From the NCBI RefSeq assembly GCF_900142415.1, contig NZ_FRAU01000005.1:99854-163853 (forward strand): a stretch of 64,000 bases of DNA, read 5' to 3'. Under the pieces are notes generated by a model that was given only the letters and a program-made list of their open reading frames with translations, ran no database searches and was not told where the DNA came from. The translations under genes were made by a program, and so were the position numbers. Positions 5,883-23,613 of the stretch are shown in pieces. Numbering within the stretch: position 1 is the stretch's first letter; every line of letters begins with the position of its first letter. This DNA is from Rhodothermus profundi. Its GTDB lineage: Bacteria; Bacteroidota; Rhodothermia; Rhodothermales; Rhodothermaceae.

Positions 5883-7139
5883 TCAGACAAAGATTGAAAA
5901 GTCGTCGCGCCGCAGATGCAGATTGAGCACAACCGCTAACATCAAGGTATTGGCCAGAAGCGACGACCCTCCATAGGACAGGAAAGGCAGGGGAATGCCG
6001 ATTACGGGCAATAGCCCTGTTGCCATCCCGATGTTGATGAACACGTGCACCAGAATCACCCCCGCCACACCGGCTGCCACCATCAGCCCGAAAGGATGGC
6101 GGCATTGCGTGCCAAGCTGAATGAGCCGCACCAGCAACAGCCCAAAAAGCACCAGCACCAGCGCCGCCCCGACGAAACCAAACTCTTCTCCGATCACACT
6201 GAAGATGAAGTCGGTGGACTGTTCGGGCACGTAGGCTCCCTGCGTCTGCGTACCCTGCATAAATCCTTTACCCCAGAGGCCACCCGAACCAATGGCAGCT
6301 TTGGACTGCACCAGGTGAAAACCGTACGTCTGACGATAGGCTTCGGCTTCAGGATTGGTAAACGAAAGCACACGGGCCAACTGATAGGGCTTCAGCACAT
6401 AGGCCAGCGCGAAGGACGCCACAGCGGCCGTTCCCCCGGTAAAGAGTCCTGCAAGCGCGCCCATGTACGTTTCGCGCGTATGCCAGAAGATGCCCAGCGT
6501 AAAGAGCACGGCAAATGCCACGGCCGCCGGCCAGGAGATAAGCGTCAGGTAGCCTGCTACCGCAGGCGAGATCACCAGCAGCACTGTGGCAACCGGAAGG
6601 CCGCTCCAGAAGAGCATAATGGGAACCAGGGCCAGAAAGACCAGCGCCGTTCCCATGTCGTTCTGCCCGATGATAAGGGCAGCAGGCACCAGGATAAGCC
6701 CTACAGCGCCCAGAGCGTAACGGACCGTGTCGATGCGTGCCTGACGGGTTGACAGTAAGCGGGCAACCGCCAGCACGGTCCCTACTTTGGCCAGTTCAGA
6801 CGTCTGGAAACCGATGGGACCAAGGTAGAGCCAGGCTTTTGCCCCATTGATTTCGCGTCCAACGGCCAGCGTGAGCAGCAGTAGCGCAATGGTTGCGCCA
6901 TAAATGGGATAGGCCATGCTCTGGAAAAAGCGGGCGGGCAACAACAATACGACGCCCAGCGCAGCCAGTGAAAGACCGGCCCAGAGGAGCTGCCGTTCAA
7001 AGTTATCCTGCACGTTCTGTGAAAGAAATTCGGCAGCAGGGCCGTGCGTCGTGCTATAAAGAGCGACCAGCCCCGCTATTACCAGGGCGGCCCATAGGAG
7101 CATAAGCAGCACATCCGGTTTACGAGCAAGACGAGCCAT
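5883..7139 (-). CDS. rodA: Rod-shape-determining glycosyltransferase RodA
   Basis: The 418-residue SEDS-family protein has about ten membrane helices. It polymerises lipid II glycan strands for side-wall growth together with the transpeptidase PBP2. SEDS signatures are visible: SELAKVGTVLA early, IIGQNDMGTALVF (the E/D-x-D-x-G-T segment), QSTDFIFSVIGEEFGFVGA, and the C-terminal VIGIPLPFLSYGGSSLLANT. The start MARLARKPD lies 4 bases after the mrdA stop, which implies translational coupling. Pairing with mrdA rather than ftsI marks it as RodA and not FtsW. Confidence 0.95.
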   Translation of the reverse strand: MARLARKPDVLLMLLWAALVIAGLVALYSTTHGPAAEFLSQNVQDNFERQLLWAGLSLAALGVVLLLPARFFQSMAYPIYGATIALLLLTLAVGREINGAKAWLYLGPIGFQTSELAKVGTVLAVARLLSTRQARIDTVRYALGAVGLILVPAALIIGQNDMGTALVFLALVPIMLFWSGLPVATVLLVISPAVAGYLTLISWPAAVAFAVLFTLGIFWHTRETYMGALAGLFTGGTAAVASFALAYVLKPYQLARVLSFTNPEAEAYRQTYGFHLVQSKAAIGSGGLWGKGFMQGTQTQGAYVPEQSTDFIFSVIGEEFGFVGAALVLVLFGLLLVRLIQLGTQCRHPFGLMVAAGVAGVILVHVFINIGMATGLLPVIGIPLPFLSYGGSSLLANTLMLAVVLNLHLRRDDFSIFV

Positions 7140-7143
7140 AGGA

Positions 7144-8994
7144 CTATTGCGAAGCGGCCTGGGTAAGGGCGGGTGCGTCCAGCGGTTGACTTCGTTGGCG
7201 GAGCACGTGCTCAAGCATATAGCGGCGCTGAGGCGTAGCAGCCACCTTTCCCGTCAGGTACAGTTCCGCCATAAGGCTGGCGATAGGAGCCGCAACGGTA
7301 GCGCCAAAACCTGCATTTTCCACCAGCACGGCAATGGCTATTTGCGGATCATCATAGGGAGCAAACATGATAAAGAGCGAGTGGTCCTTACGGCCGCCGG
7401 GAGCCTGCGCGGTACCCGTCTTCCCTCCACTTGGAATGCCGGGGATCTGCACCCACCGGGCCGTCCCTTTTTCCATCACGCGCCGCATGCCTTCCCGGAC
7501 AACCTGAAAGTGTTCGGGTTTAATGGGGATGGGTTCAGGAGGGGGCAACTGCGGTTTCAGCACTTCGCCGGTCTCCGGATGCACAAGCTCGCGGACCAGA
7601 TGAGGGGGGTAGAGCGTACCGCCGTTGGCGATAGCAGCCACGTAGCGGGCCAGTTGCATCGGCGTTACGGTCATGTCGCCCTGCCCGATGCCCAGGTTGA
7701 TCGTGTAGCCGGCCGTCCAGCCGTTAGGATAGCGCCGGTTGTAATAGGCTGAGTCGGGAATCAGGCCAGGATTTTGCTCTGCAATATCCATAGGAATGGG
7801 CACGCCAAACCCAAAACGATTGGCCCAGCGCCGGAGCGTGTTTACATCAAGGCGCATCATTACCGTAAAAAAGAAGGTGTTGCAGGACTTTTCAATGGCT
7901 TCACGCACGCTGAGCGATCCGTGCGCCCCTCCATGACACCGGAAAAATCGTCGCCCCAGCCGATAGCCGCCTGGGCAGTAGATGGTGCTGCGCGCCGTAA
8001 TTACGCCTTCTTGCAACCCCACCAGTGCCATAAAGGGCTTCCAGGTTGACCCGGGCGGGACGCCGCTCATTGTGGCCCGGTTGAACAGCGGCTTTTCAGG
8101 ACTCATGGTCAGGTAGCGCCAGGTTTCCGGATCAATAGGCCCGGAGAGCAATGCAGGGTCGAAGTCCGGCATGCTCACCAGGGCAATGATCTCCCCGCTG
8201 TTCGGATCGAGCGCTACCGCAGCCCCTCGTTTACCGACAAAGAGGGTCTCGGCGAGAGCCTGCACGCGATAATCCAGCCCCAGGTATAAGTCGTAGCCGC
8301 TGATCGGCGGCACATCCTCGGCTCCTTCGCGGTAGGGCTTGATCTCCTGCCCATGGATATTGACCAGCTTAAAGGCGCGTCCTGGCACGCCCCGAAGCGC
8401 CTTTTCGTAGAACTTCTCCAGCCCTGCCTTGCCGATACGATCCCCCATCACATAGCCCTCGCTTCGAAGCTGCTCCAGTTCGGTGCGGGTAATCTCGCGC
8501 ACGTAACCCAGGGCGTGCGCTGCGCGGGCGGGCGTATGGTAGCGTCGACGCTGGTCAATTTCGTACTGGACGCCAGGCAGGCGGTACAGGTTTTCAACCA
8601 CCCGACTGAACGTCTCGAACGACAGGTCCGTAAACACCCGGCTGGGACGATAGGCGCTCCAGGCGCGAGCCTGCGCTAGCCGACGGGCTACTACCGAGTC
8701 AGGCACTTCCAACAACCGGGCCAGCAGGGGAATATTCCTGGGGTCAAAATACCGGGGCGTAATCAACAGCGAATAGGCGGGCGCATTGTCAACAAGCAAC
8801 ACGCCGTTACGGTCGTAGATGGCACCCCGGGCCGGCATGACGCGCTGCTCGCGCACGGCATTGTTGCGCGACTCACCTGCATACAGCTCGGCCTGCCAGA
8901 GCTGCATCTGGGCCAGCCGAAGCAGCAATAGCCCGAGCAGCAGAACAATCACCCCGGCAAAAATTCGTGCCCGAACCCGGTAGTCTACCATCAT
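7144..8994 (-). CDS. mrdA: Penicillin-binding protein 2, elongation transpeptidase
   Basis: The 616-residue class B PBP cross-links peptidoglycan during elongation. It has one N-terminal membrane anchor (about residues 9-28), a pedestal domain starting RVMPARGAIYDRNG, and the transpeptidase domain with nucleophile Ser316 in PPGSTWKPF (SxxK), SCN at about 370-372, and KTGTA near residue 530. The start is one of two adjacent ATG codons. mreC and mreD, often just upstream, are absent; instead an intergenic region with a 17-bp palindrome separates it from a divergent peptidase gene. It forms a unit with rodA and probably the following argS-pheA-ftsX. Confidence 0.96.
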   Translation of the reverse strand: MMVDYRVRARIFAGVIVLLLGLLLLRLAQMQLWQAELYAGESRNNAVREQRVMPARGAIYDRNGVLLVDNAPAYSLLITPRYFDPRNIPLLARLLEVPDSVVARRLAQARAWSAYRPSRVFTDLSFETFSRVVENLYRLPGVQYEIDQRRRYHTPARAAHALGYVREITRTELEQLRSEGYVMGDRIGKAGLEKFYEKALRGVPGRAFKLVNIHGQEIKPYREGAEDVPPISGYDLYLGLDYRVQALAETLFVGKRGAAVALDPNSGEIIALVSMPDFDPALLSGPIDPETWRYLTMSPEKPLFNRATMSGVPPGSTWKPFMALVGLQEGVITARSTIYCPGGYRLGRRFFRCHGGAHGSLSVREAIEKSCNTFFFTVMMRLDVNTLRRWANRFGFGVPIPMDIAEQNPGLIPDSAYYNRRYPNGWTAGYTINLGIGQGDMTVTPMQLARYVAAIANGGTLYPPHLVRELVHPETGEVLKPQLPPPEPIPIKPEHFQVVREGMRRVMEKGTARWVQIPGIPSGGKTGTAQAPGGRKDHSLFIMFAPYDDPQIAIAVLVENAGFGATVAAPIASLMAELYLTGKVAATPQRRYMLEHVLRQRSQPLDAPALTQAASQ

Positions 8995-9064
8995 GCGCGT
9001 CCGCTAATCTGCCCTTTCAAGATCTGACCGGTACTCCTGTTCCATTTTTGCTACATCCTATTGT

Positions 9065-9081
9065 ATACTTTAAGAAAGTAT
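9065..9081. promoter_or_regulatory. Perfect palindrome ATACTTTaagAAAGTAT between divergent genes
   Basis: Two 7-base arms with a 3-base centre lie 71 bases ahead of mrdA and 171 bases ahead of the rightward peptidase gene. This is the only strongly symmetric element in the 257-base divergent spacer. It could be an operator, or a chance symmetric AT-rich promoter region, since TATACA/TACAAT-like hexamers overlap it. No regulator can be assigned. Confidence 0.35.
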
Positions 9082-9251
9082 CGGCTATACTACCAGGCGC
9101 TCCAATAGCGCGGCGCATCTTTTGCTGCTAAGTAAGTTATGGTAGGAGATCGGAAGAACCGATTGACCGCTCCTACGTTTGGACATAGAGAAGTCCGTGC
9201 AGACTTCGCCCCCTGGTCCGTACCGTGCCGCCGCCAGACTGGAGAAGGATT

Positions 9252-12200
9252 ATGCATGCCTTTCGAATCGCCGGCCTGTTGCTCCTGCTCATAGGCTGGA
9301 CCCTTCCTGCCTGGGCCCAGTACTTCGGCCGCAACAAGGTGCAGTACGAAACCTTCGACTGGAAGGTGCTGCGTACGCCCCACTTTGAAATCTACTACTA
9401 TCCCCAGGAAGAGGTCGCTGTGCGAGATGCGGCCCGTATGGCTGAGCGATGGTACCAGCGCCACAGCCGCACCTTTCTGCATGAGTTTGGCGAGCGCAAA
9501 CCTATCATTTTTTATGCAGATGACGCCGACTTCCATCAAACCAATGCAATCAGTGGGGAAATCGGCGAAGGCACAGGCGGCGTAACAGAATCCATCAAAG
9601 AGCGCGTGATCATGCCGTTTACGGGAATCTATCGGGAAAATGATCACGTGCTCGGTCACGAGCTGGTCCATTCCTTTCAGTATGACATTGCGCTGAACCG
9701 TTCCGATAGCCTGAGCCGCTTCGCGCTGGCGTTGTTGCCGCTGTGGCTTGTCGAAGGCATGGCAGAGTACCTGTCGGTGGGACGCCATGACCCCCACACG
9801 GCTATGTGGTTGCGCGATGCGGCGCTGCGCGACGATCTTCCTACCATCCGCCAGCTTACGCGTGACTTGCGCTATTTTCCTTACCGCTACGGCCAGGCCT
9901 ACCTGGCATACATTGGTGGCAAATACGGTGATCAAGCGGTTACCGATCTGTACAAGCTGGGCGGTATTGTAGGCGTCGATACAGCTATCGTCCTCACCCT
10001 GGGCATTACGCCCGACTCGCTCTCTCGGGAATGGATTCAAGCCGTCAAGCAGACCTACCTTCCGCTGCTGAAGGATCGCACTCCTCCGGAACAGGCCGGT
10101 CGGAAGGTGCTGGCACCCGACCTTGATGCCGGTGAAATCAACCTGGCTCCCGCCCTTAGCCCTGACGGACGCTACGTGGCCTTCCTTTCCGAGCGCGATC
10201 TGTTCACAATCGACCTGTTTGTGGCCGATGCCGAAACAGGCAAAGTGCTGCGCCGCCTGAGCAGCAGTGCCAGCGATCCGCACTTCGATGCAATCCGTTT
10301 CATCAATTCCTCGGGCTCCTGGTCGCCCGACGGCCAGCGTTTCGCCTTCATTACGTTCGCACGGGGCAACAACGAAATTGCCATCTGGAACCTGCGCAAA
10401 GGGAAACTGGAACGCCGCATTGCCGTCGAGGGAGTAGGGGCCATTCACAACCTGGCCTGGTCACCTGACGGCCGCACCATCGCCTTTTCTGGGCTTTCGG
10501 GAGGCATCAGCGACCTGTACCTGCTGGATCTGAAGACAAACCAGGTGCGCAAGCTCACCGACGACCGCTACGCCGATCTGCAACCCGCCTGGTCACCTGA
10601 CGGCCGCACCATCGCCTTTGTATCCGACCGAGGACCCGACGGCACCGACTTCGAAATCTTACGCTACGGCCACGAGCGACTGGCACTGCTGGACCTGGAA
10701 ACGGGCAACGTGCGCGTGCTGCGCCCCTTCCAGCATGGGCAGCAGATCAATCCGCAATTTTCACCGGATGGCCGAAGCCTGTACTTCATCTCCAACCATG
10801 ATGGCTTCAAAGACATCTACCGAATGGATCTGTCGACCGGAGCCGTTTATCGCATCACCAAGCTGCAAACAGGCGTCAGTGGCATTACCAGCATCTCTCC
10901 GGCCATGAGCGTGGCCGCTCAAAACGGCCGCATGGTCTTTTCAGTCTTCACCGACAACAAGTACCTGGTTTTTGCTTTAGAGCCCCATGAGCTACAGGGT
11001 GATCCAGTAACCCCGGGCACTGATCAGGGCATCGCCAGCGCCGGTGTGCTGCCTCCCTTGCAACCCCCTACACAGGGACTGGTCAGCAACTACCTGAATG
11101 ATCCGCTGACCGGACTGCCCGATGAACTGACGCTTCGCCCTCAGCCCTACCGACGCCGCCTGCAACTGGACTATATCGCACCCCCCACGTTTGGCGCTAC
11201 CGTAGGCGGTCCCTTCGGCACCCTGATTGCCGGTGGCGTAGGCTTTTTCTTCAGCGACATGCTGGGCGACCAGCAACTGGCCGTTGTGGCACAGGCCAAC
11301 GGCACCTTCAAGGATATCGGAGGCCAGATTGTCTATATCAACCAGGGCGGGCGAATGAACTATGGCTTGCTGGGAAGCCATATTCCCTTACTATTCGGAT
11401 ATGCGTACTTCCGGCCAGCCTGCTTCGATCCGGCTACTGAACTGACCGTCCCCTGCTACGTCCAGATACTGCAACGCATTTATATCCAACAGGTCAGCGC
11501 GCTGGGCTACTATCCCCTGAACTCTACCCAACGCTTTGAGCTCCAGATTGGCTTTCAGCGCTATGGCTTCGATTATGATGCCGAAATTTATTACCTCTAC
11601 GGCGCAGGATTCCGACGCGACACGGAAAATCTGGATGCTCCCAAGCCCATTTATTTCTTCCAGGTATCGGGCGCATTTGTAGGCGATTTCTCTTTCTTTG
11701 GCTTTACCTCACCAGTACGCGGTTCACGCTACCGTCTTGAAATTTCGCCCCTTACGGGCACCGAACGTTTCGTACGCGTGCTCATCGACGGACGCAAGTA
11801 TTTCTTTTTCCGTCCGTTGACTTTTGCTGTCCGCCTGACCCACGTAGGTAACTACGGCGCTCGCCCCCAACGCCCTGGCGAGCTCTCCTTTGCCCAGGAG
11901 TACCTGGGTTATGGAAGTACTCCGACCTTTGTGCGAGGCTACAGTTTCTATTCGCTGGAGCCCGACGAATGCACCCCCGCTCGCAACGGGGAAACGCTCT
12001 GCGCCGAAGCTCTTCGGCTTATCGGAACGCACGTAGCCGTCGCCAGCGCGGAGCTGCGCATTCCGCTATTTGGAACCGAACGTTTCGGGTTGTTTAACTT
12101 TCCCTACCTACCCACTGAATTGTCGCTGTTTGCCGATGCCGGCGTAGCCTGGTCGAAAGGAGACCTGCCTACCTGGAAGTTTGCGCGTTACTCGCCGGAT

Positions 12201-16747: not shown

Positions 16748-17401
16748 TCAAAGCCCCAACCGATGCAGCAGGTATTCCAGACGGCTGCGCCAGCCCAGAC
16801 CGTAGCCGTAGCGAGCAGCCGTGCCACGCCCCAGATGATGCACGTACGTCTCGATAGGAAAGGAAACCAGCCGATAGCCTGCCTGTTCAGCCGCACGAAA
16901 ATTCTGCAGGGTTGGCAGCCCGTGATGAATAAACGGCGGCAACCTGAAGTAAAAAGCGCGCCGAAGCAGCAGGTAGGGCGTTGCCAGTACCGGCAGGCCA
17001 CCTGCCTTGCGAAACCCTCGACGTCGATCAACCTCCACAATCCTGCCAGCACCATAAGCCTGCGGATCGGCCTCCAGCGCCGCGATCATCGGCTCCAGAA
17101 AGCCGCCTCGCCGCGTCTCCGTGTCGCTGTCAAAAAAGTATACGTAAGGGGTTGTGATTGCCTCCATGGCCCGATGCATGGCAGGGCCATGATAGATGTT
17201 TTCAGGTAACCAGAGCGCCCGGACGGCCGCGTGTCCTTCCGCAATTAACTGCTCGATAACCTGCCGGGAGTGATCGCGCGAGCCGTTATCGACAATGAGC
17301 AACGGCACCATCGGATAGTACCGCCGAAAAGAGCGCACGGCCACTTCCAGCAGATCAGGCGTCTGGTAGTTGATCACAACAGCCGTAACAGGCAGTTTCA
17401 T
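16748..17401 (-). CDS. Family 2 glycosyltransferase
   Basis: The 217-residue GT-A fold enzyme transfers a sugar from a nucleotide donor. Signatures are VTAVVINYQTPDLLEVAVRS, LLIVDNGSRDHS and the metal-binding DxD in VYFFDSDTETRRGGF. The start follows AGGAGGG by 4 bases. The protein is short for GT2 and has no membrane helix, so it probably acts at the cytoplasmic face. The gene trails the three membrane-protein genes by 46 bases and could be part of their transcript, but functional linkage is not evident. Acceptor unknown. Between its 3' end and the tRNA terminator (16615-16747) I see no gene. Confidence 0.85.
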   Translation of the reverse strand: MKLPVTAVVINYQTPDLLEVAVRSFRRYYPMVPLLIVDNGSRDHSRQVIEQLIAEGHAAVRALWLPENIYHGPAMHRAMEAITTPYVYFFDSDTETRRGGFLEPMIAALEADPQAYGAGRIVEVDRRRGFRKAGGLPVLATPYLLLRRAFYFRLPPFIHHGLPTLQNFRAAEQAGYRLVSFPIETYVHHLGRGTAARYGYGLGWRSRLEYLLHRLGL

Positions 17402-17447
17402 AGAGCCCTCCTGCACCGCTTGCTTGCAATAAAATACGCCCTAACGC

Positions 17448-17855
17448 TCAGGCGCCGCGACGCTGCTGCGCAACCCGGATGCGTGGCCAGAGAAGTCGCG
17501 CCCAGAGCACAACGGCTATAAGCTCCATCGTCCGCCCGACTACCTGCACTCCCTGCATCATACTCACCGCTCCAATGCCTACCAGCCACACGCCCCCTAC
17601 CAGTATCCCCCCTGCTACCCAGGCTCCCTGATCTGAAGGACGCACGCCTCCCCTTCGCGGCAGAATCCACCAGGCCACCGACACCGCAAATAACACCATG
17701 AAACCCAGCAATACCAGTTCCACGTGCATCAGCCGTAAGCCTGGCCAGGCCGGCAACCAGCCCGTCTTATGGACCAACAGCCAGGATCCCATCGTAAAGC
17801 CCAGCAACAGGTGGCCCAGGGCCAGACGAATCAACCAACAACTCACGGACGGCAT
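17448..17855 (-). CDS. Small four-helix membrane protein with H-x-Gf-PR motif
   Basis: The 135-residue integral membrane protein has four hydrophobic segments. The second helix reads LRLMHVELVLLGFMVLFAVS and ends in AWWILPRRGG. A similar arrangement of a helix-buried His, Gly-aromatic and terminal Pro-Arg occurs in the next upstream gene, suggesting the two are paralogues. The pattern recalls haem-bearing helices of haem-copper oxidase/nitric oxide reductase subunit I, but the protein is far too short for such an enzyme. It lies 3 bases after the preceding gene and is thus in one operon with it. A haem or copper role linked to respiration or NO is inference. Confidence 0.6.
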   Translation of the reverse strand: MPSVSCWLIRLALGHLLLGFTMGSWLLVHKTGWLPAWPGLRLMHVELVLLGFMVLFAVSVAWWILPRRGGVRPSDQGAWVAGGILVGGVWLVGIGAVSMMQGVQVVGRTMELIAVVLWARLLWPRIRVAQQRRGA

Positions 17856-17858
17856 GGT

Positions 17859-18278
17859 TTAGCGCCGTTTGACTCGTGTCCACAGATAACTGACCATGAA
17901 AAGGCCGGCTGTCCACTGGAGCAAAGCGGAAAGCATCAGCAATCCGCGCCACCAGACCGAGGCGGTCCAGGTAATCGCCGGCTCGGACAGGATACGTAGC
18001 ACAATCCCGGCATTGAGCAGAGGGTAAGCGGCTCGGGCCAGTGCCTGGGGACCATACGGACGCGCGCGCGAATGCCGCGGAAACAACCAGAATGCCACCC
18101 CAAAAATCAGTTGGGTTAGCCAGCCCACGGTCAGCAAATGAATCCACGCAGGCCAGAATACTCCCTGCCAGCGCTGCAACCCACCTTCTGCAGGCCATAC
18201 AATGACGATCCCCAGCAGCAATGCTAGCGCCAGATAGGCCAGGGCTGTTTTTACGTACCAGCGCGATAAATCAGGCAT
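17859..18278 (-). CDS. Small four-helix membrane protein, oxidase subunit I-like
   Basis: The 139-residue membrane protein has four hydrophobic segments. Its key helix is WIHLLTVGWLTQLIFGVAFW ending LFPRHSR, which resembles His-bearing helices of cbb3 oxidase/NO reductase subunit I and parallels the helix in the downstream neighbour. The start at MPDLSRWYVK was chosen over an upstream in-frame ATG because the longer version adds a charged, non-family stretch inside the previous gene. The chosen start overlaps the previous gene by 8 bases, and the next gene starts 3 bases after its stop, so all three are tightly coupled. Confidence 0.62.
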   Translation of the reverse strand: MPDLSRWYVKTALAYLALALLLGIVIVWPAEGGLQRWQGVFWPAWIHLLTVGWLTQLIFGVAFWLFPRHSRARPYGPQALARAAYPLLNAGIVLRILSEPAITWTASVWWRGLLMLSALLQWTAGLFMVSYLWTRVKRR

Positions 18279-19368
18279 ATCGGTCCCTGTGGGTTTGCGT
18301 ACGCGTCCGCCGATGCGCTGCCCAGGTTGTCCCAAGAGTAACCATCAGAAAGACCAGGATTGCCAGGGCATTTACCAGGCCCCCCCATCGCCGCCACACA
18401 AGCATCTCTGTTACATCTCCGATCACGCGCATCAGCAGCCCGCCATGCAGTAATACCAGATGTCCATAAAAAAACGACCGGTACGCTACAGGAACGCCCA
18501 GCACGGCCGGAAAAATGATAGGCGCATGCCCGAAAACCATGCTGAAAACAAATCCTACGAATATCGAATGCAACGCCGCATCGTACCAGGGTCCAGCCAT
18601 CAGTTGTCCGTAAACAAGCATGATGAATCCCCCCACTCCAAGCCAACCATATCCTGATAGCAGACACCAGGCAATAAAGCGCGTCAGCCCACGCTGTCGC
18701 ACCGTATACCGGGCTATATCGTAGCGCAGCAGCCAGAGCATGAGCAGTAGCAGCGCCGCTCCTGTCAGACGCCAGGCCAGCGTCCCCTGGACAAAGGTAA
18801 GCCCCAATCCCAGTCCAAGCAGCCCCACAATCCCCAGAAATCTGCGCGCTACCTGCGCGTCATGCAGCAGGATACGACTGAGCTCAAGCCGCTCACCAGC
18901 AATGGTCAGTACCAGAAAAGCCATCCACCAGGGCGTCACCAGCGATGCCGGCTGTCCTGCTGCCCAGGCAACCGTTCCCACCAGTAACGCAAGCGCTCCG
19001 GCCGCCATAACCTGCAAGGAAAGGTGTCGCTGCCGGCGCCATGCCACGTTTAACATACCCACCAGTCCCAGGCTTGCCAGGATGAGCAGCAGGGGGCCTG
19101 CCCACGTGCTACCCATCAGGATCAATAGCGCCCCTCCTCCAAAGGCCGCTGGCACGACATAGCCTTCTCGTCGGTCCAGCGCTACAGCTCGCTCCAGGCT
19201 GATTAGCGTGCCAAAAAAACCGGGTACCATAAGCAGGCCGTGCAGCGTGCCCCACCAAACCTGCTGCCCGAGCTGCCAGCCCAGTCGTTCCACTCCCGCA
19301 GCCAGTCCGGCCAGCAGCGCCACAACGCCAGGTACCAGAAGTGGCAGGCGGTGCAAGAAGTGCTTCAT
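18271..19368 (-). CDS. Polytopic membrane protein, NnrS/oxidase-like
   Basis: The 365-residue protein has about ten to twelve membrane helices. Histidines sit in helices with conserved-looking glycine and aromatic context: WWGTLHGLLMVPGFFGTLIS near residue 40, ALHSIFVGFVFSMVFGHAPI near residue 270, and FFYGHLVLLHGGLLMR near 300. Such buried histidines occur in NnrS (a haem-copper protein tied to nitric oxide metabolism) and in oxidase subunit I, but I cannot place it firmly in either family. It heads the three-gene unit with 18278-17859 and 17855-17448 and lies downstream of cupin, CopD-like and ric genes. A role in NO or haem/copper homeostasis is inferred from company. Confidence 0.6.
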   Translation of the reverse strand: MKHFLHRLPLLVPGVVALLAGLAAGVERLGWQLGQQVWWGTLHGLLMVPGFFGTLISLERAVALDRREGYVVPAAFGGGALLILMGSTWAGPLLLILASLGLVGMLNVAWRRQRHLSLQVMAAGALALLVGTVAWAAGQPASLVTPWWMAFLVLTIAGERLELSRILLHDAQVARRFLGIVGLLGLGLGLTFVQGTLAWRLTGAALLLLMLWLLRYDIARYTVRQRGLTRFIAWCLLSGYGWLGVGGFIMLVYGQLMAGPWYDAALHSIFVGFVFSMVFGHAPIIFPAVLGVPVAYRSFFYGHLVLLHGGLLMRVIGDVTEMLVWRRWGGLVNALAILVFLMVTLGTTWAAHRRTRTQTHRDRYA

Positions 19369-19478
19369 CTCCTCAAAAATGTTCGGCCACCTGTCCGGCC
19401 AGGTAAGGCCCTCGCCGCACCAATACAGCCATCCGTCCGGATGACCATTGTATTTCGACGATGTACGAACATAAGCGT

Positions 19479-19844
19479 TTAAGCGGCTCGATGATTCAAA
19501 GCGGCTTCTATCTCTTCGTAGTCGGCTGCCCGTGAAGGCGGAGACACCACCGCCAGCGCCACCAACCGCGTATGGGCCCGAATGCTTCGGGCCACATCGG
19601 CGGGCACGAAGACCACAGAGCCTGGGCCGACTACCCCTTCCTTTTCGCCGGCAACGACTAGTCCGTGCCCTTCCAGGATTGTCAACACCAGATCCTCTTC
19701 CGGCTGGTGCAGCGGAATCTGCTGGCCGGGTTCAAAGCACACAAGCTGCACCTTCAGGCGCTCATTTTGCGCCAGCAAAACCGGTCGTAACTGATGGCGG
19801 TCGCACTGCACCCACTCTGCAGCTTTAAGGATGAATGGTTCCAT
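19479..19844 (-). CDS. Small single-domain cupin protein
   Basis: The 121-residue protein is one beta-barrel cupin. Motif 1 is present in reduced form (QQIPLHQPEEDLVLTILEGHG), followed by GPGSVVFVPADVARSIRAHT as motif 2. The metal-ligand set is incomplete: His and Glu are seen in motif 1 and the motif 2 His is replaced by Arg-Ala, so catalytic metal binding is doubtful. AAAAAGGGGCG precedes the ATG. It is 27 bases downstream of the CopD-like gene. Small cupins of this kind commonly accompany NO/anaerobic-respiration clusters, but a function cannot be assigned. Confidence 0.75.
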   Translation of the reverse strand: MEPFILKAAEWVQCDRHQLRPVLLAQNERLKVQLVCFEPGQQIPLHQPEEDLVLTILEGHGLVVAGEKEGVVGPGSVVFVPADVARSIRAHTRLVALAVVSPPSRAADYEEIEAALNHRAA

Positions 19845-19871
19845 CGCCCCTTTTTATTTACGGTTACTTCG

Positions 19872-20375
19872 CTATCTACCCCCACCACGCACCAGCAATA
19901 CGGCCAATGCCAGAATCACCAGCGACAGCAGCGTCATGAGCCGGCCCAGATAGCTGGCTGTTCGACGCAACCGCTCGGCTGACGCTGCTCCGCGTTCCAG
20001 TAGTTGCATGGTGCGCGGCCCCAGATAAAAGTCGTGCACCGCACTGATACCCATCACCAGAAGCACCAGCACGAGTTTCCAGGCCAGCGTACGCCCCCAC
20101 GGCCCCTGCCAGAGCGCCCCCGACCATAAATCATCCCATCCATAGCCACGATACCCAATGTTCACAATGCCTGTCCCCACCAGGAGCAGCAGCACCGCCC
20201 ACCCGATCCACCGAAAGCGCAGACCAAGCCGGTAAAGCAGTGCCGTCCGAACCGATGCAAACTCTGGCCGCCGCAGCAGCGGCACTACCGCCACGCCCAG
20301 AAAAATCATGGACCCAATCCAGACCGTAGCGGCCAGAATATGTAGCCAGACGGAAAACAGATACCAGCCAGACAT
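19872..20375 (-). CDS. CopD-domain membrane protein
   Basis: The 167-residue integral membrane protein has four hydrophobic segments. The opening WLHILAATVWIGSMIFLGVA is characteristic of the CopD/YcnJ domain, with His and Trp in the first helix, and MGISAVHDFYLGPRTMQ adds a further His. CopD-type domains are associated with copper passage across the inner membrane. The neighbouring oxidase-like and NO-related genes would fit copper or haem supply for a respiratory enzyme. A -35/-10-like pair (TTGCTT, 18 bases, TAATCT) lies in the 170-base space upstream, so it may start a separate transcript from the ric operon. Confidence 0.75.
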   Translation of the reverse strand: MSGWYLFSVWLHILAATVWIGSMIFLGVAVVPLLRRPEFASVRTALLYRLGLRFRWIGWAVLLLLVGTGIVNIGYRGYGWDDLWSGALWQGPWGRTLAWKLVLVLLVMGISAVHDFYLGPRTMQLLERGAASAERLRRTASYLGRLMTLLSLVILALAVLLVRGGGR

Positions 20376-20545
20376 CCTACTGCGCCTTTACTGCACCCCA
20401 GATTACCGTTCGCGTTATGACCCAAGCAATGGTTTTTAAAGCGACCAGTTCATGCTTTTGCGTGCGTTGCCCCTGAAGCCAAGAAAGTAGGCCGCTCGGC
20501 TACGACCAGTCCCGGATCGACAACCATAACGATTGAAGCAACGCG

Positions 20546-20863
20546 TCACCCTGAGCCCTCGAAGTCGGCCAGCCGATAGAACCATATTTCCCAGTCTTCG
20601 TCCTGCCCGTGCGCAATCCAGTGCGCCCAGCCTTTCTGGTGCATCACCCCCAGCAGCGGCACCGGCTTAAACGTCGCGCGCAGGCGCAGCACATGCCCGG
20701 GAGGCATGCGTTCGACCGTTTCCATGATACGGGAGAAAGGCTCCCCACCGCTCTGCAGAATTGGCCGCACGTCCAGCTCAACAAAGCGGGTTGCCGGAAG
20801 TCTGGCCAGAAAAGTCGGAGGTGAAGTCATTGCCTTTGTCATGGTTTTGCCAGGTTTCAACAT
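20546..20863 (-). CDS. DUF2249 protein
   Basis: The 105-residue protein has the DUF2249 pattern: VELDVRPILQSGGEPFSRIM, then VLRLRATFKPVPLLGVMHQK and WEIWFYRL at the end. The domain has a TusA/IF3-C-like alpha/beta fold and is repeatedly found next to hemerythrin-type and nitric-oxide-response genes. Its biochemical role is unknown. Its ATG shares one base with the stop of the DUF59 gene (TAATG), so translation is coupled. Internal ATG codons 8 and 12 residues in are alternatives. It ends the ric unit. Confidence 0.85.
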   Translation of the reverse strand: MLKPGKTMTKAMTSPPTFLARLPATRFVELDVRPILQSGGEPFSRIMETVERMPPGHVLRLRATFKPVPLLGVMHQKGWAHWIAHGQDEDWEIWFYRLADFEGSG

Positions 20864-21174
20864 TACAAAAACCTGTTGTGCCGCACTTCAGGGTCAATCA
20901 TGTGCGGCGACCAGGGAGGATCCCACACCAGCTCAATGACGCCACGCCGGACGCCCGGGGTGCGCTGCAGCACACGGGCCACTTCCTGCTGGATATAGCG
21001 CGCCAGCGGACAGGCTGGCGTGGTCATGGTGAGTTTGACCATTACCGTACCATCCGGCGACACCTGGAGATCGTAAATCAGGCCTAAATCGACAATGTTC
21101 AGGCCTATCTCCGAGTCGATTATGGTCCGCAGCCGACCAGCCAGCGCCAGGCGAGACGGTACAGGCGTGCTCAT
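20863..21174 (-). CDS. DUF59/MIP18-family Fe-S assembly protein
   Basis: The 103-residue protein is a DUF59 (MIP18/SufT/PaaD-like) domain, a family that helps deliver or assemble Fe-S clusters. Visible features are SEIGLNIVDLGLIYDLQVSP and MTTPACPLARYIQQEV, which carries the conserved Cys after TxxxCP, and ELVWDPPWSPHMID at the C-terminus. It overlaps the upstream small gene as ATGA and the downstream DUF2249 gene as TAATG. Placement directly behind ric suggests rebuilding Fe-S clusters damaged by nitric oxide or oxidation. Confidence 0.9.
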   Translation of the reverse strand: MSTPVPSRLALAGRLRTIIDSEIGLNIVDLGLIYDLQVSPDGTVMVKLTMTTPACPLARYIQQEVARVLQRTPGVRRGVIELVWDPPWSPHMIDPEVRHNRFL

Positions 21175-21311
21175 AAACGCTTCGCATTTTCGCCGGGACG
21201 CGTCAGCTCACCAGGGCAGCCCAAATGTTCAAGCCACTCCGTCTCGTCGTTGGGCCAAGCATCTGCCTGTTTGCCTTCCCCTGAGGGTGCTGCCTCTCCC
21301 GGCTCTGTCAT
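21171..21311 (-). CDS. 46-residue acidic small protein in the ric operon
   Basis: This short frame begins at ATG 21309-21311, 9 bases after the ric stop, with GAAGGGC 5 bases before the start. It ends in an ATGA overlap with the DUF59 gene. The product starts MTEPGEAAPSGEGKQADAWP and continues with an EWLEHLGCPGELTRPGENA segment. It is strongly acidic with one Cys in a Leu-Gly-Cys-Pro-Gly context and has no membrane helix. Ribosome binding site, precise overlap and lack of any other gene in this 146-base space support it as real. No family recognised. A scaffold or partner of the DUF59 protein is a guess. Confidence 0.6.
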   Translation of the reverse strand: MTEPGEAAPSGEGKQADAWPNDETEWLEHLGCPGELTRPGENAKRL

Positions 21312-21320
21312 AGATGCCCT

Positions 21321-22031
21321 TCAGGCAGCCGCTTCCGCCAACAGGCGACGCGCCCGCGGAAACAGAATATTGTTCTCCCGATGCACGTGGCGATGCATAT
21401 CAGACGCCAGGGCCCGAAGCCCTGCAAGCAGAGCCCGGAAGCTATGGCAAGCTCCTTCGGGAGGCTGATAATTGTTGGACAGCTCTTTCAATCGATGCAG
21501 CGCCTCACCTGCAGCATCGTGCTCCTGCTCGGCCTGCTGTAGCAACGGCTCTAGTTCGAGGCCGGCCTCTGTCGATCCCTGCTCTAACGCCCGTATCCGA
21601 GAGAAAATCATTTCCTCTTCGCAGTGCATGTGCGCCTCCAGCGCCGACTTGAGTCGCTCGAAGACCTCCTGTCCTTCGCGCAGCCAGGGATTTCGGTCGC
21701 CATGTACCGCCACCACGCGTTTCAGGAGCGCGCTCAGGCGAGGTAGTTCACGCCGCAGGTAAGCGTGATGTGTCGCCACAATATGATCGATCAGGTTCGA
21801 CAGGGGTTGCGTCCGCCAGTCGATGACTGGTTCACTGACGGCTTCGGTCGTTCCCAGCGCCTCCAGCACAGCAGCTACCGTCGCAGGATCCAGGCCGCGC
21901 GCGCGGCAGGCCTCTTCCAGCGTGCGGCTCCCTCCACAGCAGTAATCCAGACCCAGTTGATCAAACAGCCTGGCGCGCCGTTCGTCGGCCGCCACCAGTT
22001 CTCCCAGGGTCTGATGGATCCATGGATGCAT
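21321..22031 (-). CDS. ric: Iron-sulfur cluster repair di-iron protein RIC (YtfE/ScdA)
   Basis: The 236-residue protein repairs Fe-S clusters damaged by nitric oxide or oxidants and can reduce NO. The N-terminal ScdA_N domain ends in DYCCGGSRTLEEAC (Cys31, Cys32). The hemerythrin-like four-helix bundle follows with the expected carboxylate/His ligands: HIVATHHAYLRRELPRL, AHMHCEEEMIF, AEQEHDAAGEAL, and SDMHRHVHRENNILFPR. The start MHPWIHQTLG has GGAGGA 3 bases upstream; a 19-residue longer frame lacks support. It heads a leftward unit with a small gene, DUF59 and DUF2249 and is divergent from a SufR-like regulator. Confidence 0.95.
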   Translation of the reverse strand: MHPWIHQTLGELVAADERRARLFDQLGLDYCCGGSRTLEEACRARGLDPATVAAVLEALGTTEAVSEPVIDWRTQPLSNLIDHIVATHHAYLRRELPRLSALLKRVVAVHGDRNPWLREGQEVFERLKSALEAHMHCEEEMIFSRIRALEQGSTEAGLELEPLLQQAEQEHDAAGEALHRLKELSNNYQPPEGACHSFRALLAGLRALASDMHRHVHRENNILFPRARRLLAEAAA

Positions 22032-22092
22032 GACTCCTCCGTGCAGTTGTTGCAATTTGTGCCCATTCCAATTTAGGACAAATGACAACTTA

Positions 22093-22122
22093 AATGTATT
22101 TCCTTGGATGGATGACTGTCAA
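22093..22122 (-). promoter_or_regulatory. Candidate promoter of the ric operon
   Basis: Reading leftward, a perfect -35 TTGACA (22117-22122) is followed after 18 bases by TACATT (22093-22098). The ric ATG is about 62 bases further on. The -35 is the mirror image of the -35 of the divergent regulator gene, separated by 26 bases. Confidence 0.55.
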
Positions 22123-22148
22123 GTTTTTGAAGGAAGAAATCTTCTTTA

Positions 22149-22177
22149 TTGACAGAAGCTCCATGATCCTGTAGTTT
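22149..22177 (+). promoter_or_regulatory. Candidate promoter of the SufR-like regulator
   Basis: A perfect -35 TTGACA (22149-22154) and a 17-base spacer lead to TAGTTT (22172-22177); the ATG is at 22210. Between this -35 and the divergent one is a short GAAGA-aa-TCTTC symmetry, which could be the regulator's operator. Confidence 0.55.
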
Positions 22178-22209
22178 TAAAGGGAGTCCTGATAGGAAGA
22201 GGCCGCTTA

Positions 22210-22857
22210 ATGGAGACCTGGACGCTGCTTGGTTCCGATACGAAGCGCCAGTTGCTGCATCTGCTCAAGCGGCGCGGGCAGCTCACCTTGAACGAAGCAG
22301 TTGCGGCAACCGGTTTGACGCGTCCTACCCTTCGAGAGCACCTGGTGCAACTGGAGCGGGATGGCCTGGTGTACCACACGACTGCGCGTCAGCGACGCGG
22401 CCGTCCGTTTCTGCTTTACCGCCTGACGTCGGCGGGCGCGCAGCTTTTTCCTAATCGGGACGGGTCGCTGCTGGGCCGTCTGCTCTGTTTTTTGCAGAAG
22501 GAAGGCGCTGACGATCTACTGCAGCGCTTTTTTGAGCAGTACTGGGAGGAGCGTCTGCAAGCTGCGCAGCAACGACTGCAAGCTGCGGACACGCTGGAGA
22601 AGCGGTTGGCGGTGCTGCGCGCATTCCTGGAAGAGGAGGGATTTATGCCTGAGATTGTCTGCTCCGCGCAGGGCATTGAAATTCGCGCGTGCAACTGTCC
22701 GTTTTGGGAAACGGTCCGGCATACGCGTTTGCCCTGTTACCTGGAAGCTCGCTTTTTTGAACAGCTCCTTGGACAAAAAGCAGTTCGCGTCACCTATATT
22801 CCTGAGGGGAGTCCGGCGTGCCGTTACCTGTTTGAGAGGCGCCAGTCCAGCCGTTAA
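22210..22857 (+). CDS. SufR-like winged-helix regulator with Cys cluster
   Basis: The 215-residue protein has an N-terminal winged helix (residues about 8-72: NEAVAATGLTRPTLREHLVQ as recognition region, then the RRGRPFLLYRLT wing), a helical middle, and a C-terminal Cys-rich part. Cysteines lie at 151, 161, 163, 176 and 204; the Cys163-x12-Cys176 spacing with a later Cys in GSPACRYLF resembles the Fe-S-binding region of SufR-type repressors. It is divergent from ric, so sensing of Fe-S status or NO through a labile cluster and control of ric and itself is a strong inference. No suf genes are nearby. An ArsR/DeoR label alone would understate the C-terminal part. Confidence 0.8.
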   Translation: METWTLLGSDTKRQLLHLLKRRGQLTLNEAVAATGLTRPTLREHLVQLERDGLVYHTTARQRRGRPFLLYRLTSAGAQLFPNRDGSLLGRLLCFLQKEGADDLLQRFFEQYWEERLQAAQQRLQAADTLEKRLAVLRAFLEEEGFMPEIVCSAQGIEIRACNCPFWETVRHTRLPCYLEARFFEQLLGQKAVRVTYIPEGSPACRYLFERRQSSR

Positions 22858-22870
22858 GTTGCTCTATAGG

Positions 22871-22914
22871 GGAAGATGCCCGTATCTTCCAGGCGTTCGG
22901 CGCATCCCGAACGC
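22871..22914 (+). other. Two tandem hairpins in a leader region
   Basis: GGAAGA (22871-22876) pairs with TCTTCC (22885-22890), and GCGTTCGG (22893-22900) pairs with CCGAACGC (22907-22914). They fill most of the 90 bases between the regulator and the next gene. No T-run follows, so they are not classic terminators. They may act as an mRNA processing or stability element, or as a Rho-dependent attenuation site. Confidence 0.4.
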
Positions 22915-22947
22915 TTCTCGTTATGTTGTAGCTTAATTGGTTCCATC

Positions 22948-23613
22948 ATGTCAACACAGTTTTCCTGGCATAACTGGGTGGCGCGCTCATTTGCCCGCGT
23001 CTTTACGCGGCGGCTGGGCGTTCTTTTTCGTCGGTACACCAACGGTGCGGTGCTGAACCGGCATGCGCTCCATGAGGAGGCGGAGCAACTCCGGCAATCA
23101 AACCAGGACCTGGCCCTTGATCCCCCTGCCCAGGTGCATTTGCTCATGACGTCCTACGTGCTGGCTGGCTATCGCATTCTGCAAGACCACGGGCTTTCTC
23201 CGGAAGCAGCCAGAGCACTCCTGCAGCAGGCTTTTGCTGGAATGGGCAGACGATGGATCTGGCTGTTCACCTGGCTGCAAATGCGCCTGGCTCGCAATCC
23301 TCTGGAAATGCTGCGTCAGACAGCCCGGCGACGGGCACGCACCGATTATGGCGCCACGTTTCATTTTTCAGAAACCGGAAATGCGGAGGCCTTTACCCTG
23401 CTCGTGCATCGCTGCTTTTATTACGACTTCTTCCGGCGAAATGGGCATCCAGAGCTGACCCTTATCTTCTGCGCCTGGGATCGCAACTGGGCCGATGCCA
23501 TCCGTCCCGAGCGGGACGGCGTGCGTTTCGAGCGCCCCACGACCCTGGCTGAAGGGCAGGATGCCTGTCGTTTCGTTTTTCGACGAGACACGCGTCCGCA
23601 AAATCCAGCTTGA
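22948..23613 (+). CDS. ATC-hydrolase family (L-2-amino-thiazoline-4-carboxylate hydrolase-like) protein
   Basis: The 221-residue protein shows the ATC_hydrolase family ending: LVHRCFYYDFFRRNGHPEL, LIFCAWDRNWADAI, then FERPTTLAEGQDACRFVFRR. In Pseudomonas the founding enzyme opens the thiazoline ring during cysteine formation, but most family members are uncharacterised and the Cys-rich C-terminus could serve other chemistry. The start MSTQFSWHNW was preferred over a 24-residue longer frame that would run through the leader hairpins. It follows the SufR-like gene on the same strand and might link sulfur supply to Fe-S repair, which is inference. Confidence 0.72.
   Translation: MSTQFSWHNWVARSFARVFTRRLGVLFRRYTNGAVLNRHALHEEAEQLRQSNQDLALDPPAQVHLLMTSYVLAGYRILQDHGLSPEAARALLQQAFAGMGRRWIWLFTWLQMRLARNPLEMLRQTARRRARTDYGATFHFSETGNAEAFTLLVHRCFYYDFFRRNGHPELTLIFCAWDRNWADAIRPERDGVRFERPTTLAEGQDACRFVFRRDTRPQNPA

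Follow-up and report, generated by a model that had tools for sequence, protein, structure and literature searches.

A SufR-like regulator beside ric and predicted oxidase-fold membrane proteins in Rhodothermus profundi: a candidate operon for repair of nitric oxide damage

Which regulator governs the iron-sulfur cluster repair gene ric in Rhodothermus profundi, and what signal would it answer? The question is raised by a locus within a 64,000-nucleotide stretch of the genome (hereafter the window; positions 99,854 to 163,853 of contig NZ_FRAU01000005.1, or C5, of a 3.14 Mb genome), where a gene for a SufR-like regulator (REG) is divergent from a minus-strand block (22031-17448, in window coordinates) that runs from ric through genes for DUF59, DUF2249, CopD-like, and cupin proteins to three membrane proteins, here named M365, M139, and M135. 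An initial annotation of this DNA had described the same arrangement, which was confirmed by open reading frame (ORF) and domain searches, and had interpreted it as a single system for nitrosative and iron-sulfur stress. We estimate a probability of about 0.58 that the locus is an operon for repairing nitric oxide (NO) damage and protecting respiration, controlled by a local SufR-type [4Fe-4S] repressor that is probably NO-sensitive. The supporting sequence evidence comprises gene content, co-conservation, conservation of the ligands and the operator, and predicted folds.

REG (22210-22857, plus strand; 215 amino acids [aa]) has a winged-helix domain (HTH_5, 33.8 bits) and matches SufR_cyano TIGR02702 over its full length (58.2 bits, E 9e-16), below the equivalog cut-off of 178.8, and it is the sole full-length member of its family in the genome. 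All eight aligned REG homologs, which reach down to 29% identity, keep C163, C176, and C204, and seven of the eight also keep C161; C151 and C93 are private to the window species. The initial annotation had placed the cysteines at 151, 161, 163, 176, and 204 correctly, including the species-private C151, and had overlooked C93. The spacing C163-X12-C176-X27-C204 is that of C203/C216/C244 in Mycobacterium tuberculosis SufR, in which these three cysteines are required for function and C242 is dispensable (PMC6034842); the same protein is reported to be NO-responsive via its 4Fe-4S cluster (Anand et al., 2021, as cited in PMC9045647). Judged from its sequence, REG probably senses iron-sulfur clusters, as the initial annotation had suggested; that suggestion gains support from a ligand spacing identical to that of SufR, and cluster binding itself is presumed. 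Profile searches found no match to an Rrf2 domain in REG at E up to 1, and the comparison with sequences of solved structures returned helix-turn-helix (HTH) matches only. A reading as a defense system was rejected, as the PADLOC matches around REG were confined to the HTH part.

Two described regulators resemble REG. SufR (COG2345/TIGR02702; known from cyanobacteria, Mycobacterium, and Streptomyces) shares with it the winged helix, the C-terminal C-X12-C-X27-C pattern, and similarity over the full length, but REG adjoins ric rather than suf, and the ric island is also where its putative operator is located. That REG might regulate suf was considered and rejected: the SUF operon is located elsewhere (sufB at C1:327555, REG on C5), and no match to the Rhodothermus site was found in that region. 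ArnR of Corynebacterium is likewise a winged-helix protein with three cysteines, a [4Fe-4S] repressor of nar and hmp, acting in nitrate respiration and NO detoxification, that loses DNA binding with NO and was reported not to be significantly homologous to the regulator families known to be NO-sensitive (PMC12343034). Compared by description, ArnR differs from REG in its cysteine spacing (X13/X29) and in its targets.

The region between REG and ric carries a candidate site for such a regulator. This region is well conserved in the genus; an alignment of Rhodothermus loci shows TGTCAA-GTTTTnGAAGGAAnAAAnCTTnTTTA-TTGACA, the outer arms of which are the -35 boxes of divergent promoters, and both promoters are conserved among the aligned loci. 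The putative REG promoter (22149-22177, plus strand) consists of -35 TTGACA (22149-22154), a 17-bp spacer, and -10 TAGTTT (22172-22177), and the putative ric-operon promoter (22093-22122, minus strand) consists of -35 TTGACA (complement of 22117-22122), an 18-bp spacer, and -10 TACATT (complement of 22093-22098). An inner dyad, GAAGGAAGAAATCTTC (22129-22144), is kept between the two boxes across Rhodothermus, within what we regard as the putative REG operator in its Rhodothermus variant (22127-22150, unstranded). The stretch 22117-22154 singled out in the initial annotation does contain a real inverted repeat, its outer arms being the two -35 boxes with the inner dyad between them. From this position, between or at the -35 boxes, a dimer on the dyad would be expected to shut off transcription in both directions.

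At the same position, the Balneolaceae loci contain a clear palindrome, AAAACGGT-N4-ACCGTTTT, followed by TATTGA. With a position weight matrix (PWM) built from Balneolaceae-type sites, sites scoring at least 20, the threshold used, were present within 1.4 kb upstream in 37 of the 50 REG loci whose upstream DNA was long enough, compared with 2 such sites in 97 control loci (1.18 Mb); at a threshold of 17, Markov-simulated loci gave 3 matches and the real loci 87. Because the training sites of the matrix come from the same REG loci, 58 Balneolaceae-family genomes that had not been selected for REG were scanned in full as an independent test, and 16 of the 29 site loci fetched were located at the REG operon. 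The remaining inspected sites lie mostly within or beside unrelated genes, and a reversed-pattern control gives a comparable number; further operator targets in Balneolaceae were rejected on these grounds. The Rhodothermus form has one match per genome in five of the seven Rhodothermus genomes (the window genome and six congeners), two in the fragmented genome G395, and none in G394, where a match to REG was not found either.

Conservation of gene content and order links REG to ric. The ric product (21321-22031, minus strand) exceeds the cut-off of TIGR03652 (236.3 vs. 204.7) and retains in the alignment the N-terminal CCGG and all six His/Glu di-iron ligands, checked against the ligand positions of YtfE. 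We found 44 REG homologs in about 85,000 species genomes scanned, almost all in Rhodothermaceae, Salinibacteraceae, and Balneolaceae (family names were read from named relatives within the same families). Within these 44 loci, on contigs that are short in many cases, ric or ric-like genes were present in 31, DUF59 in 18, M139/M135-type genes in 17, CopD in 16, DUF2249 in 16, and M365 in 15. A comparison of two survey lists places ric in 28 of 29 REG genomes, and within the order REG occurs in 11 of 20 genomes with ric and in none of the 20 listed genomes lacking it. The island is kept across Rhodothermus and takes rearranged forms in its salt-loving relatives of Salinibacteraceae and Balneolaceae; CopD is found in the loci of all three families, and the cupin within Rhodothermus only. 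The gene-order comparison proposed in the initial annotation accordingly shows content common to three families and co-occurrence of REG and ric. This co-conservation, the REG-ric co-occurrence, and the conserved dedicated operator give good support to the annotation's view of a single system with one regulator.

In the congener that we take to be R. marinus DSM 4252 (G008), the block is longer, in the order DUF2249c, a 231-aa gene, ric, DUF2249a, DUF59, DUF2249b, ferredoxin, CopD, cupin, M365, M139, and M135, with three DUF2249 genes compared with one in the window. Against this order, the window species shows losses of the ferredoxin gene, the gene for the 231-aa protein, and two of the three DUF2249 genes. 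The ferredoxin gene is retained in the sister genome G395 and is missing at window positions 20376-20545, which correspond to its site in the R. marinus locus (L033). The 231-aa protein (L033 10417-11109, minus strand) is conserved in the islands of R. marinus and Salinibacteraceae and has no significant Pfam or NCBIfam match. A 46-aa ORF at 21171-21311, included as a gene in the initial annotation, lies at a position that R. marinus fills with a DUF2249 gene; it was dropped, as it has no homolog in any sister genome, including the closest.

Outside these families, other Bacteroidota carry blocks of ric, DUF2249, a 430-aa oxidase-like protein, and DUF59 accompanied by an Rrf2 regulator in place of REG. 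These loci resemble NsrR/Rrf2-controlled ric loci and the window in having an iron-sulfur-type regulator adjoining ric (in Bacteroidota, in the order Rrf2, ric, DUF2249, oxidase-like, DUF59), but the regulator families are unrelated, and a SufR-like protein substitutes here. SufR-type control of the ric island by REG would parallel the Rrf2/NsrR control found elsewhere. The regulators of ric named in a 2022 review are NsrR, FNR/Fur (indirect), DnrD, NorR, SrrAB, and SarV/MgrA/SarA of Staphylococcus aureus, with no SufR-type regulator among them (PMC9268430).

The genomic context points to denitrification. NirK scores above the cut-off in all seven Rhodothermus genomes, and the third heme-copper enzyme of the window genome (L193 664-2376, C4:279 kb) carries GHGSQQ, with the Tyr-to-Gln substitution by which eNOR is defined; general models name it, weakly, as a cytochrome c oxidase, and from its motif it is a probable eNOR. 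Given nirK, this probable eNOR, and nosZ in the window genome, NO would be a normal intermediate in the cell. In a Salinibacteraceae locus (L041), REG, ric, CopD, and M365 adjoin nirK and nosZ. The nitrosative stress named in the initial annotation therefore fits the ric content, the nirK/eNOR/nosZ complement of the genome, and relatives with nirK and nosZ alongside, the signal itself being a prediction. The nosZ-nos cluster of the window genome immediately precedes the suf operon on its upstream side (L202, C1:320000-336000). The DUF2249 protein of the window (TusA-like; 20546-20842, minus strand; PF10006 58.9 vs. a gathering cut-off of 29.5) belongs to a family tied to denitrification through DrpA, a DUF2249 protein of Thermus (PMC6282519, PMC11218638); DrpA stands apart as a proposed periplasmic nitrate sensor.

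The three membrane proteins, which the initial annotation had left uncharacterized, can now be placed on the fold of heme-copper oxidase subunit I, as a whole or as single thirds. M365 (18271-19368, minus strand) matches no Pfam family in its window version, none of 15 members gives a significant Pfam match, and a comparison with sequences of solved structures gave no match. Its AlphaFold2 (AF2) model (pLDDT 88.6) has the 12-helix subunit I fold and aligns to CcoN over 350 residues (Z 28.2, root-mean-square deviation 3.6) and to NorB (Z 26.5). H43 (helix 2) and H267 (helix 10) are invariant and occupy the low-spin heme positions, H267 lying 20 residues before the Pro at the end of its helix, a spacing shared with the Fodinibius CcoN of L102. 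In the alignment and model, no conserved copper-site His is found in helices 6 and 7, and position 265, that of the high-spin heme ligand, is not His. M139 (17859-18278, minus strand; AF2 model pLDDT 90.6) represents a single four-helix third of this fold, aligning with Z of about 14 to any of the three four-helix oxidase units, and has a conserved H47; its hidden Markov model finds three successive repeats in CcoN and in the 430-aa Bacteroidota protein. In its paralog M135 (17448-17855, minus strand), placed on the fold by alignment and homology to the modeled M139, a conserved H44-x-E46 stands at the place of the M139 His. In a tree of oxidase repeats, M139 and M135 form separate, well-supported clades, each present in all three families, suggesting that the pair is old; the tree resolves these two clades and not the root, and some M139-type rows missed by the motif rule are labeled U.

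On the strength of these models, M365, M139, and M135 represent new families on the predicted subunit I fold, M135 through its homology to M139, and they probably bind heme b. They differ from CcoN/NorB in that M365 lacks the copper-site His and in that thirds of the fold are encoded as separate paralogous genes. A more speculative proposal, which we consider possible though doubtful, is that the three proteins, one of them with a copper-less oxidase fold and the other two single-repeat thirds, form a heme-b membrane complex, an undescribed module for NO handling or electron transfer that would be switched on by a SufR-type NO sensor. Two alternative identifications were rejected: M365 as NnrS (PF05940 gave no match in the 15 members at E up to 5, a search in which HMMER filters may drop weak matches), and NorB in Fodinibius, where the 476-aa heme-copper oxidase is CcoN-like with a CcoO/P partner. 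No relatives of M365 in viral contigs were found in a search for related loci. Two further Balneolaceae proteins are conserved beside ric without a significant Pfam match (L063, minus strand: 7630-9441, 604 aa, and 6343-7560, 406 aa), and the 406-aa protein has an HxH motif and resembles another oxidase-fold protein.

Several observations weigh against an NO-responsive repair operon. The Rhodothermus operator is degenerate, with a PWM score of 15.6 that is the best in the window yet below the threshold of 20, and the matrix scan found no recognizable site of this kind in Salinibacteraceae REG loci. In Balneolaceae, the gene directly before REG (L102 9174-9974; also in L105, L118, L057, and L133) is a ric paralog that has lost CCGG and most or all di-iron ligands, and it may possibly act as a partner of the regulator; in Fodinibius, the block divergent from REG holds cbb3-oxidase genes for CcoN and CcoO/P-like proteins (L102 4101-6557, minus strand). 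Because of this ligand-less paralog and these cbb3 genes, the signal could be O2 or general iron-sulfur status. M365 lacks a copper site and carries one more conserved His, and we infer rather than observe the cluster, the signal, the direction of regulation, and the role of the membrane proteins.

The SufR ligand set of REG and the DUF59/SufT member of the block would suit a regulator that reads general iron-sulfur status (iron or sulfur shortage, or oxidative damage), with NO not the main signal and RIC and DUF59 serving general maintenance, and M. tuberculosis SufR answers several stresses; the SUF operon, however, is at a distance from REG and lacks a matching site, and the partners (ric, DUF2249, and oxidase-fold proteins) together with the nirK/nosZ neighbors in L041 point to denitrification, so that this explanation seems unlikely. 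The cbb3 genes in Fodinibius blocks, and the frequent O2 sensitivity of [4Fe-4S] clusters, would favor a switch for microaerobic respiration that responds to oxygen or redox state and targets the oxidase-fold proteins and cbb3, with ric as a passenger. We consider such a switch decidedly improbable, as a cbb3 oxidase was not found in Rhodothermus, where the island is kept all the same, as ric accompanies nearly every REG genome, and as the similar protein ArnR was reported not to be an O2 sensor. An ArsR-type Cu/Zn sensor, with the CopD-like protein and the cupin handling copper for NirK/NosZ and oxidases, would agree with the HTH_5 family and the CopD-like gene, but it has very little probability, since the ligand spacing is that of SufR, the cupin is restricted to one genus, and CopD is present in under half of the REG loci.

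Under the preferred reading, an NO-damage repair operon, a REG dimer in the resting cell would hold a [4Fe-4S] cluster via C163, C176, C204, and possibly C161, and would repress its own gene and the ric operon, with both promoters shut. NO from the cell's own NirK, or cluster loss, would nitrosylate or strip the cluster, and the dimer would leave the DNA. RIC might then free iron or nitrosyl from damaged clusters, the DUF59 protein could help rebuild them, and DUF2249, with the ferredoxin in most relatives, may handle sulfur or electrons. In the weakest step, the oxidase-fold membrane proteins would serve as NO-binding or electron-transfer parts, or in the assembly or protection of heme-copper enzymes.

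The remaining members of the block are the DUF59/SufT-like gene (20863-21174, minus strand), whose product has a TPAC cysteine motif and scores above the cut-off of PF01883 (58.5 vs. 23.5) and below the SufT equivalog cut-offs (TIGR02945, 88.7 vs. 143.4; TIGR03406, 77.8 vs. 202.6), the CopD/DUF4149 membrane protein gene (19872-20375, minus strand; PF05425, PF13664), and the Cupin_2 gene (19479-19844, minus strand; PF07883). The initial annotation had treated 16748-23613 as one unit, but the genes at both ends, a glycosyltransferase (16748-17416) and a 245-aa ORF (22876-23613; PF14196), are absent from the R. marinus locus and were rejected as island members; they are neighbors. Overall, its observation is partly confirmed and its interpretation partly supported.

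With a single predicted operator in most Rhodothermus genomes, the locus offers a clean test case for a SufR-type cluster protein recruited as an NO sensor. From models, a fold can now be assigned to a membrane family that Pfam does not cover. The one-third units of the predicted oxidase fold stand alone and have been retained as an ancient pair of genes, which bears on how heme-copper oxidases are constructed; if the assignment is true, M139 and M135 would be naturally occurring instances of the four-helix unit that composes oxidase subunit I.

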